Assembly: GCF_018069625.1 (NCBI RefSeq)
Contig: NZ_CP072941.1
Location: 8,184,001-8,248,000 of the forward strand
Length of the DNA stretch: 64,000 nt
Source of the DNA: Streptomyces yatensis
GTDB lineage: Bacteria > Actinomycetota > Actinomycetes > Streptomycetales > Streptomycetaceae
Reading direction: 5' to 3'
This document shows, in pieces, positions 10,038 to 12,088 of the stretch. The notes below the pieces were generated by a model that was not told the DNA's origin, ran no database searches, and worked only from the letters and a program-made list of their open reading frames with translations. Both the position numbers and the translations under genes were made by a program. Positions within the stretch are counted from its first letter, which is position 1; the number at the start of each line of letters is the position of its first letter.

Positions 10038-10078
10038 CCTGCCACCAGGTGGTCCGCTGACCCACGGCGGACCCCACG

Positions 10079-10123
10079 CACACACCGCGGCCCGGAGCAT
10101 CTCGCTCCGGGCCGCGGTGTGTG
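10079..10123. terminator. strong terminator after the transporter operon
   Basis: A perfect 19-bp stem (CACACACCGCGGCCCGGAG with its complement) and a 7-nt loop lie 42 bp after the transporter stop. It isolates the transporter from the TROVE/Y RNA locus. Confidence 0.9.
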
Positions 10124-10154
10124 GTCCCCCGGTCCCGCGGGCGGAGAAAACCGG

Positions 10155-10184
10155 ATGACGGCGAAGGAACCGGCCCCCTACTGT
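10155..10184 (+). promoter_or_regulatory. candidate vegetative promoter for the Y RNA
   Basis: ATGACG (10155-10160) and TACTGT (10179-10184) are separated by 18 bp. Transcription would start near 10190-10192, directly at the foot of the long RNA stem described in the next entry. The boxes alone are modest; the match to the RNA end adds weight. Confidence 0.5.
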
Positions 10185-10190
10185 CGTATC

Positions 10191-10314
10191 CGTGAACGCA
10201 CCTCCCGGTGCGAAGACGACGGCTACTTCGGTCGATTTGGGTTCGATTCCTGAAACACCCCGCCGGCGCGGGGTGGGAAACGTACCGTCGTCGACTCTGA
10301 TCTCGGGAGGCGCG
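10191..10314 (+). ncRNA. candidate bacterial Y RNA with tRNA-like T-arm, partner of the TROVE protein
   Basis: The ends pair into a bipartite stem: CGC-A-CCTCCCG (10197-10207) with CGGGAGG-C-GCG (10304-10314), an internal loop, then a perfect 8-bp helix GACGACGG (10215-10222) with CCGTCGTC (10285-10292). The enclosed part has a 6-bp hairpin with the 7-nt loop TTCGATT in a GGTTCGATTCC context (10236-10254), exactly like a tRNA T-arm, and a second 8-bp GC hairpin (10256-10275). A Ro-binding terminal stem plus a tRNA-mimicking module is the known design of bacterial Y RNAs, which are often encoded beside rsr. An alternative local hairpin CGCACC/GGTGCG (10197-10212) exists. Both ends are inferred. 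Confidence 0.72.
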
Positions 10315-10459
10315 CGCACGGCATCGGAGCGCCTGGTGCGCGGGCCGCGGTTACTTCCTTTCCCAGAGCGGACCGCCGCCCACTTTCGACCTCAGGCGCT
10401 GCCGACGCACCGGTGCGCCGCCTCCCTCCAATGCCCACTCGGGGGAGAGGCATGGCAGC

Positions 10460-12088
10460 ATGACGAAGTTCAACCGCGCCATCCGGCGCGCCACGGACAC
10501 GACGACCACCACGGCCACCACGACGACCACGGCTCCGACGACCACCTATGAGGGCGCCGCCGCCGTCACCCGCGACAGCAGGTCCGAACTGGTGCTCCTG
10601 GCCGTGGTGAACATGGTCGGCGAGCAGACCTTCTACGAGTCCTCCGGCGACCGCGACGACCGCTTCCGCACCCTCGTCCGCACCGTCGCCGTCCAGGACG
10701 CCGAGTGGACCGCGCGCTTCATCACCTGGCTGCGCGGCGAGGCCCAGATGCGCACCGCCTCGCTGGTCGCCGCCGCCGAGGCCGTCGCGGCACGTCGCGC
10801 GGCCGGGCTGCACGGCGGCAACCGCCGCATCGTCGACGCCGCGTGTCTGCGCGCCGACGAGCCCGGTGAGTTCCTCGCCTACTGGACCGCCCACCACGGC
10901 CGCGCGCTGCCCAAGCCGGTCAAGCGCGGCCTCGCCGACGCCGCCCGCCGCCTCTACACCGAGCGCTCACTGCTCAAGCACGACACCGAAAGCCACGACT
11001 TCCGCTTCGCCGACGTCCTGGAGCTGGTGCACGCCGCCCCGGACCCCGAAAAGCCCTGGCAGAGCGAGCTGTTCCGGCACGCCATCGACCGCCGCCACCA
11101 CCGGGACGCCGCGCCCCCGGTCTCGCTGCGCACCCTGCGCGCCCGCGCCCGGCTGACCGCCCTGCCGCAGTGGGAGCGCCGCGCCGTGCTGGAGCGGCCG
11201 GACGCCGCCGAAGCGCTCCGCACCGCCGGGATGACCTGGGAGGCACTCGCGGGCTGGCTGCAGGGGCCGATGGACGCGGTGGCCTGGCAGGCCGTACTGC
11301 CCTCGATGGGCTACATGGCGCTGCTGCGCAATCTGCGCAACCTCGACGAGGCCGGACTGCCGGACGCGGTCGCCGAGCGGATCGCGGCACGGCTGGCCGA
11401 CCCGGCGGAGGTGGCCCGCTCCCGTCAGTTCCCGTACCGCTTCCTGTCCGCGTACCGGGCCGCGCCGTCACTGCGCTGGGGCCACGCCCTGGACCGGGCG
11501 CTGACCGCGGCCACGGCGGCCGTCCCGGCACTGCCGGGCCGCACCCTGGTGCTCGTGGACACCTCCGGCTCCATGCAGGCGCCGGTCTCGGGCCGCTCCC
11601 AGGTGCGCCATGTGGACATCGGCGCGCTCTTCGGGGTCGCGCTCGCACACCGCGGCTGCCAGGTGGACCTGGTCGGCTTCGCCTCCGGGCACTTCGGCCA
11701 CCGGCTGACCCCGGGTGGTTCGGCGCTCCGCGACATCGAGGGATTCTGCGCGCGGATCGGCGAGGTCGGGCATGGCACGGAGACGGGGGCGGCGCTGCGG
11801 GCGGCCTACCGCGGCCACGACCGGGTGGTGATCGTCTCGGACATGCAGGCGTTCGCCGACGCTCGCGGCGGCCGGTCCGTGCCGGTATCGGAGGCCGTTC
11901 CGTCGCGGGTGCCGGTGTTCGGCGTCAACACCACCGGCTACGCGGCCACGTCCATCGACACCGGCCGGCCGAACCGGTACGAGATCGGCGGTTTCAGCGA
12001 CAAGCTGTTCACGATGGTCGGGCTGCTGTCGGAGGGCGACCGGGACGGCAGCGGCGGCCGGACCGTCTGGCCGTGGGAGGCGGCGTAG
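10460..12088 (+). CDS. rsr: TROVE domain protein, bacterial Ro60 orthologue (Rsr)
   Basis: The 542-aa protein has an N-terminal HEAT-like TROVE ring (about 30-340) and a C-terminal von Willebrand A domain with the MIDAS motif DTSGSM near residue 365, GTETG and VIVSDMQ. Family members are ring-shaped RNA-binding proteins. They bind Y RNA on the outside and misfolded or structured RNA ends in the cavity, and with PNPase can form an RNA-degrading machine. The ATG follows GGGGGAGAGG. Residues 12-29 are a Thr-rich low-complexity tail absent from most homologues. A candidate Y RNA lies 145 bp upstream on the same strand, supporting a working Ro-Y RNA pair. Confidence 0.9.
   Translation: MTKFNRAIRRATDTTTTTATTTTTAPTTTYEGAAAVTRDSRSELVLLAVVNMVGEQTFYESSGDRDDRFRTLVRTVAVQDAEWTARFITWLRGEAQMRTASLVAAAEAVAARRAAGLHGGNRRIVDAACLRADEPGEFLAYWTAHHGRALPKPVKRGLADAARRLYTERSLLKHDTESHDFRFADVLELVHAAPDPEKPWQSELFRHAIDRRHHRDAAPPVSLRTLRARARLTALPQWERRAVLERPDAAEALRTAGMTWEALAGWLQGPMDAVAWQAVLPSMGYMALLRNLRNLDEAGLPDAVAERIAARLADPAEVARSRQFPYRFLSAYRAAPSLRWGHALDRALTAATAAVPALPGRTLVLVDTSGSMQAPVSGRSQVRHVDIGALFGVALAHRGCQVDLVGFASGHFGHRLTPGGSALRDIEGFCARIGEVGHGTETGAALRAAYRGHDRVVIVSDMQAFADARGGRSVPVSEAVPSRVPVFGVNTTGYAATSIDTGRPNRYEIGGFSDKLFTMVGLLSEGDRDGSGGRTVWPWEAA

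Follow-up and report, generated by a model that had tools for sequence, protein, structure and literature searches.

Two tandem candidate Y RNAs upstream of the Ro60/Rsr gene of Streptomyces yatensis

The closest described systems are the bacterial Y RNAs that accompany Ro60 homologues (Rsr). As far as the excerpts of the published accounts go, YrlA has three tRNA-like arms (D, T and acceptor) and serves DusA and TruB as a substrate, the lower stem is the part that Rsr binds, and in Deinococcus radiodurans a Y RNA tethers Rsr to PNPase (PMC8394870, PMC7790460, PMC4726728, PMC8058203). Among the titles and opening abstract lines of the literature on bacterial Y RNAs, Ro60 and TROVE, no title concerns Streptomyces Y RNAs; Chen et al. 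(2013, 2014), Sim and Wolin (2018) and Wang et al. (2018) could include some.

Here we analysed 64,000 nt of Streptomyces yatensis DNA (the window, from whose first letter all positions are counted). An initial annotation had proposed that the interval 10191-10314 encodes the Y RNA of the adjacent Rsr. From comparative sequence analysis, we put the probability at roughly 85% that this interval holds the first member of a tandem pair of Y RNAs belonging to that Rsr. The second RNA, at 10325-10403, is an addition to the earlier reading, which had RNA1 alone.

Like YrlA (RF02553; Salmonella rsr-yrlBA-rtcBA) in its excerpted descriptions, the window has an RNA beside a Ro gene, with a long terminal stem and a candidate tRNA-like T loop, and its RNA1/RNA2 pair resembles the tandem yrlB and yrlA of Salmonella, as far as these are covered in the excerpt of PMC7790460. 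Unlike the Salmonella locus, the window RNAs lie upstream of rsr; unlike YrlA, RNA1 lacks a D arm and is not matched by the YrlA model. A further probable parallel is the D. radiodurans Y RNA of the RYPER complex (Rsr-Y RNA-PNPase), which works with Rsr and from which the mechanism proposed below is taken (excerpts of PMC7790460, PMC4726728 and PMC8058203).

The rsr locus and its two candidate RNAs

The intergenic stretch 10038-10459 is bordered on one side by a glycine-betaine ABC transporter gene and on the other by the gene of a Ro60/Rsr homologue. This protein matches Pfam TROVE with 52.3 bits (cut-off 23), as do 39 of 39 aligned relatives, and the D-x-S-x-S motif of its vWA domain occupies residues 367-371; an NCBIfam search with it returned no match. 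It is the single Ro match of the whole 10.36-Mb genome. In the Ro tree, the proteins of the window's clade form a supported branch of their own, apart from other Streptomyces Ro proteins. The features of the locus are as follows.

10179-10184, + strand: -10-like box TACTGT (TANNNT) of the RNA array; a TANNNT box occupies this place in 11 of 11 analysed clade relatives with RNA1
10191-10314, + strand: RNA1, candidate Y RNA with a putative T arm and no D arm, 10197-10314 from stem to stem (fold, clade alignment, models)
10197-10207, + strand: 5' strand of P1, pairing with 10304-10314 at 10 of 11 positions (read directly; family covariation)
10208-10214, + strand: conserved internal-loop motif GTGCGAA (family GTGCGNN) between P1 and P2 (alignments)
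10215-10222, + strand: 5' strand of P2, pairing with 10285-10292 at 8 of 8 positions (read directly; family covariation)
10223-10229, + strand: conserved CTACTTC motif after P2 (the relatives' motif aligns with AUGCUU of the Rfam YrlA consensus)
10237-10253, + strand: putative T arm, stem 10237-10241/10249-10253, loop TTCGATT 10242-10248 (comparison of D-less RNAs, consensus fold)
10256-10275, + strand: acceptor-like hairpin, 10256-10263/10268-10275, 8 bp, loop CGGC (fold; 5 of 8 pairs changed on both sides)
10285-10292, + strand: 3' strand of P2 (read directly)
10304-10314, + strand: 3' strand of P1 (read directly)
10325-10403, + strand: RNA2, candidate second short Y RNA without a tRNA-like module (R2 match, alignment)
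10325-10335/10393-10403, + strand: P1 of RNA2, 9 of 11 pairs
10343-10350/10373-10380, + strand: P2 of RNA2
10460-12088, + strand: Ro60/Rsr homologue, 542 aa, TROVE and vWA (Pfam TROVE, A7 conservation)

Reading the sequence directly confirmed both stems and the TTCGATT loop where the initial annotation had placed them. One of the 11 positions of P1 is an A-C mismatch, and the stem of the T-arm-like GGG-TTCGATT-CCT (10239-10251) includes two G-U pairs; TTCRANY loops closed by five of five pairs occur only four times in total on the two strands of the 64-kb window. The fold of 10185-10330 reaches -70.9 kcal/mol (z -3.5), and none of 200 shuffles was as stable. RNA2 shares the core of RNA1, GGTGCG...TTACTTC, closed by its own stem; folded alone it is only mildly stable (z -1.9), and 7 of 200 shuffles did as well. 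Ten nucleotides separate RNA1 from RNA2, and 56 nt lie between the end of RNA2 and the rsr start.

Both RNAs have the marks of a Y RNA, a terminal stem made from the 5' and 3' ends and a linked Ro60/Rsr gene. Of the arms that define YrlA, RNA1 has a putative T arm and an acceptor-like hairpin, and RNA2 has none. Searched against Rfam at gathering scores, the window gave no family except a tRNA-Pro elsewhere, and ARAGORN called no tRNA at RNA1. The YrlA covariance model, proposed earlier as a check, failed to match: RF02553 (gathering score 69) gave nothing in the intergenic stretch even at E 10. The same model does match homologues next to other Ro genes, with 29-61 bits (below 69) in 4 of 6 loci of one set and 7 of 9 of another; the outer P1 stem and the GTGCG motif of these relatives lie outside the part aligned to the model. 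By the defining tests RNA1 is not YrlA; it is very probably a D-arm-less variant of a Y RNA, and its way of working is probably like that of YrlA.

Several other elements of the stretch were set apart. A GTG frame at 10192-10551 is unsupported as a coding gene, because the length of RNA1 varies among clade members (115, 117, 118 or 119 nt, and 91 in S. oryzae). A long near-perfect hairpin at 10075-10129, 3' of the transporter gene and similar in clade relatives, is likely a terminator without a T run; the miRNA-type Rfam matches sit on this hairpin and are spurious. A three-codon open frame, ATGGCAGCATGA, at 10452-10463 overlaps the rsr start ATGA, and the form ATGACCGCATGA is present in L002 and five named relatives (L032-L036); this arrangement is perhaps one of translational coupling. 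In S. endocoffeicus (L034, upstream of 2867), RNA2 and Ro are kept and RNA1 and its promoter box are absent.

Relatives, covariation and co-occurrence with Ro

A DNA-similarity search of 150 Streptomyces genomes for the interval gave matches in 46, comprising the genome itself, three near-full copies and 42 genomes with a conserved part of the 5' side, mostly 32-34 nt. Because DNA similarity outside the clade yielded mostly this 5' core, we turned to loci selected by protein and to covariance models (R1, with RNA1 in its alignment, and R2, with RNA2 in its alignment). Loci were read from both sources, 30 from DNA similarity and 61 fetched by the Ro protein. In Streptomyces, Kitasatospora, Actinomadura, Nocardiopsis, Glycomyces, Dactylosporangium and others, a regex detector found arrays upstream of Ro that hold between one and four RNAs. 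The array RNAs have P1, GTGCG, P2 and a TACTTC-like motif in common, and differ in the apical head.

The detector reported 118 elements in 55 of the 61 stretches of up to 1 kb upstream of protein-selected Ro loci, none on the reverse strand of these stretches, and three in 454 kb of other strand-bases. Its matches in the window were RNA1, RNA2 and a chance one at position 1369, which passes neither R1 nor R2. The first version of the detector saw no element in L056, L061, L070, L075, L078 and L092. R2 recovers one in the first four; L078 and L092 have none by detector or R2, and L092 holds only a 19-residue Ro match.

R1 exceeded 120 bits in 4 of the 150 genus genomes, the next score being 64; it gave 110-137 bits in seven named clade loci and 64 in S. 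oryzae. Outside the training set, L122 scored 80 bits, and by eye its sequence shows an arm of 5 bp, a T loop and a hairpin with GGAAAC after it, the same as in the window. In the whole genome of S. yatensis, R1 and R2 each found RNA1 and RNA2 alone below E 1e-5, with the next best at E > 1. Both RNAs score high by construction, since each is in the alignment of its own model (RNA2 reaches 68.2 bits with R2, E 4.4e-11, as part of the R2 training set), and the informative part of the search is the absence of other matches.

To score covariation, we combined sequence-only alignments with named structures and used shuffles and slid structures as controls; the latter weigh more, because related sequences can exceed shuffles without structure. 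Among the short RNAs (alignment A3, 57 distinct elements plus RNA2 of the window, 58 rows), 85% of cells were paired and 15 of 19 pairs had changed on both sides, a number that none of 500 shuffles matched; slid structures gave at most nine such pairs. The YrlA-like RNAs (A5, 64 rows) gave 92% paired cells and 31 of 39 pairs changed on both sides (0/500 shuffles, slid structures at most 18). A5 holds 64 of 73 distinct elements; nine with class-II-like D arms, long inserts or an unusual head were excluded (L023, L026, L028, L045 second, L060, L076, L084, L088 and L091 second). For the 14 rows of D-arm-less, T-type RNAs the values were 92% and 10 of 32 pairs (0/500 shuffles, slid structures at most five), and in further pair types shuffles were as high in 95 of 500 cases. 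For the condition under which the initial annotation would have been refuted, no covariation of its two helices among related species, the outcome is mixed: covariation is strong in the wider family, and the close clade offers almost none, P1 and P2 of RNA1 being nearly invariant there.

Across the 150 Streptomyces genomes, an R2 RNA was found in 78 and a Ro match in 84; no genome had the RNA without Ro, and 66 had neither (Fisher P 4.9e-36, uncorrected for kinship, many genus loci having also trained R2). Two of the RNA genomes, G066 and G125, have partial Ro matches only. Of the six Ro genomes without an R2 match, four have R1 matches and two carry only Ro fragments, so that R1 and R2 combined, from lists read by eye, place an RNA in 82 of 84 Ro genomes. 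A class-level sample of 296 genomes, which overlaps the genus sample, contained 31 with both, one with RNA only, six with TROVE only and 258 with neither (P 7.5e-35, again uncorrected for kinship); R1 had no match in the six TROVE genomes. Of 108 R2 matches, 94 share the strand of a Ro match and precede it by 26-413 nt, and 14 lie away from Ro. Position, co-occurrence with Ro, covariation of both helices in the family and the sub-threshold YrlA matches of homologues argue that the interval encodes a Y RNA of the adjacent Rsr, in agreement with the initial annotation.

The head of RNA1 and the series of head types

A rough classifier sorts the 177 elements into 75 without a tRNA-like head, 77 with T and D arms, and 25 with a T arm and no D arm. 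The heads with both arms are circularly permuted tRNAs, running from T arm through acceptor hairpin and UA to D arm, in which the Y stem replaces the anticodon stem. The acceptor-like hairpin of RNA1 sits at the place of these relatives' acceptor stem. The earlier description of a sequence without acceptor or anticodon arms was half right: it overlooked this hairpin, and the arm that is missing is the D arm.

The nearest counterparts are the T-type RNAs of three Actinomadura loci (L050, L053, L071), which likewise have a T arm, a hairpin and no D arm and score 83-91 bits with R1, all three being in its training set. They differ from RNA1 in P2 sequence and in the YrlA-like RNA that precedes them, and their Ro proteins belong to another tree branch than the window's.

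Whether the T arm of RNA1 forms was weighed against a second reading, in which the head has drifted to an alternative hairpin in the window's subclade, the T arm is unused, and the Rsr-binding stem alone matters. It is a variant inside the best explanation, compatible with Y RNA identity. In the minimum-energy fold of the window's RNA, a competing apical hairpin is formed; the T arm has a probability of 2% and lies 2.6 kcal/mol behind. The competitor wins by 1.4-2.6 kcal/mol in the window and near relatives, where T-arm probability is 2-5% (L002, L003, L032, L033, L035, L036, L040); it is also low in L037 (0.2) and Actinocorallia L052 (0.01). Against drift, the T-arm loop and G-C closing pairs are retained in the clade, and the RNAs of S. 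gossypii, S. oryzae and Actinomadura L043, L050 and L071 fold preferentially into the arm. Comparison among D-less RNAs points the same way. The 25 D-less elements that have the loop yield 16 distinct arms. With shuffles as the control, 74 of 80 cells were paired in these arms compared with 60, and 13 two-sided changes were counted compared with four (0/2000 shuffles as high in each case); in further pair types, shuffles were as high in 207 of 2000. Consensus folding of alignment A6 by RNAalifold picks the T arm, and did not choose P2. Given this retention and covariation, we regard the drifted head as rather unlikely.

Some permuted heads upstream of Ro (L023, L026, L028, L049 and L088) differ from the usual TAGCTC kind in having D arms of the form TGGCGGAA...AGACGCG, typical of Leu-type tRNAs. 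It is as if heads had been taken from different tRNAs.

Transcription and a proposed mode of action

The initial annotation had also seen a promoter-like pair with a start point at the stem foot. The box TACTGT is at the stated place, 10179-10184, and would put the start near 10191; a strict sigma-70 scan found no match, so that the case for a promoter rests on the TANNNT pattern. Of 83 first RNAs of arrays, 56 have that pattern 2-22 nt upstream; the corresponding counts are 7 of 88 for later RNAs and 92 of 4250 (2.2%) for random positions. Some boxless 'first' RNAs follow the apparent end of an earlier RNA missed by the detector (e.g. L042). Gaps between neighbouring RNAs are mostly 4-12 nt, and no terminator-like site was found between RNA2 and rsr. 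Because the boxes mainly precede the first RNAs, RNA1, RNA2 and rsr likely form one processed transcript.

Instead of free RNAs, the same arrangement could suit structures in the leader of the rsr mRNA that act in cis and through which Rsr, by binding them, regulates its own gene: most family matches (94/108) are upstream of and co-oriented with Ro, the two elements here are 10 nt apart, the 56 nt from RNA2 to the rsr start carry no terminator-like site, and promoter boxes stand mainly before first elements. Yet 14 of the 108 matches lie away from Ro, with 10 of 13 such loci between metK and priA, every element has a terminal stem of its own, arrays differ in how many elements they hold, and many elements contain whole permuted tRNA modules like that of YrlA (as described in the excerpt of PMC8394870). 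We therefore hold the leader reading to be improbable. A chance hairpin or a decayed tRNA gene beside rsr deserves hardly any credence: hairpins form easily in high-GC DNA and ARAGORN calls no tRNA there, but co-occurrence, covariation, the reverse-strand controls and conservation make it very unlikely.

For two free Y RNAs, we infer the following course. A promoter at about 10180 would transcribe RNA1, RNA2 and rsr together; each RNA would fold back through P1 and P2 and then be set free as a separate molecule. Rsr would bind the bipartite stem, whose GTGCG/GATCT internal loop is conserved; in this way the RNA would be held at the rim of the Rsr ring and would gate the entry of substrates. 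At its free end RNA1 would carry a smaller version of the tRNA mimic, made up of the T arm and the acceptor-like hairpin, by which a partner could take hold of it. By analogy this partner may be PNPase, as in the Ro-Y RNA-PNPase type of system that the initial annotation proposed, or a tRNA enzyme such as TruB. RNA2, which lacks the module, may serve only as a gate or stabiliser. The genome has one PNPase match, unlinked and 4.9 Mb away, and one TruB match, which show that the partners exist and nothing beyond that.

More tentatively, actinomycete Ro systems might obtain several Y RNAs from a single rsr transcript, all with the same stem for binding Rsr and each with one of several interchangeable heads: a full permuted tRNA, a T-arm minihelix without a D arm (RNA1) or none (RNA2). 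In the window's clade, the full mimic could then have given way to the smallest part still able to recruit a partner that reads the T arm, with one RNA as the handle and the other as the gate. Such a natural series of heads on one stem makes it possible to ask directly what in the tRNA mimic is important, and to which partner. The family extends Ro-Y RNA systems to the genetically tractable Streptomyces, with near-perfect Ro co-occurrence, and its RNAs scanned here were missed by the Rfam gathering cut-off.

Several observations concern other loci. Ten of the 13 remote loci (L105-L111, L113, L115, L116) place Y-RNA-like genes between metK and priA, as judged from protein motifs; in L106, L108, L109 and L111 a YrlA-like RNA follows directly, and all metK-priA genomes have a Ro match. 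In Catellatospora (L060, L066, L076; about 1385-2940), R1 finds about five Y RNAs per locus within 1.6 kb upstream of Ro. The Streptomyces Ro matches of G005, G040, G059 and G115 each contain one in-frame TGA, and in G066 (L015) the Ro gene behind the first Y RNA is reduced to its end.
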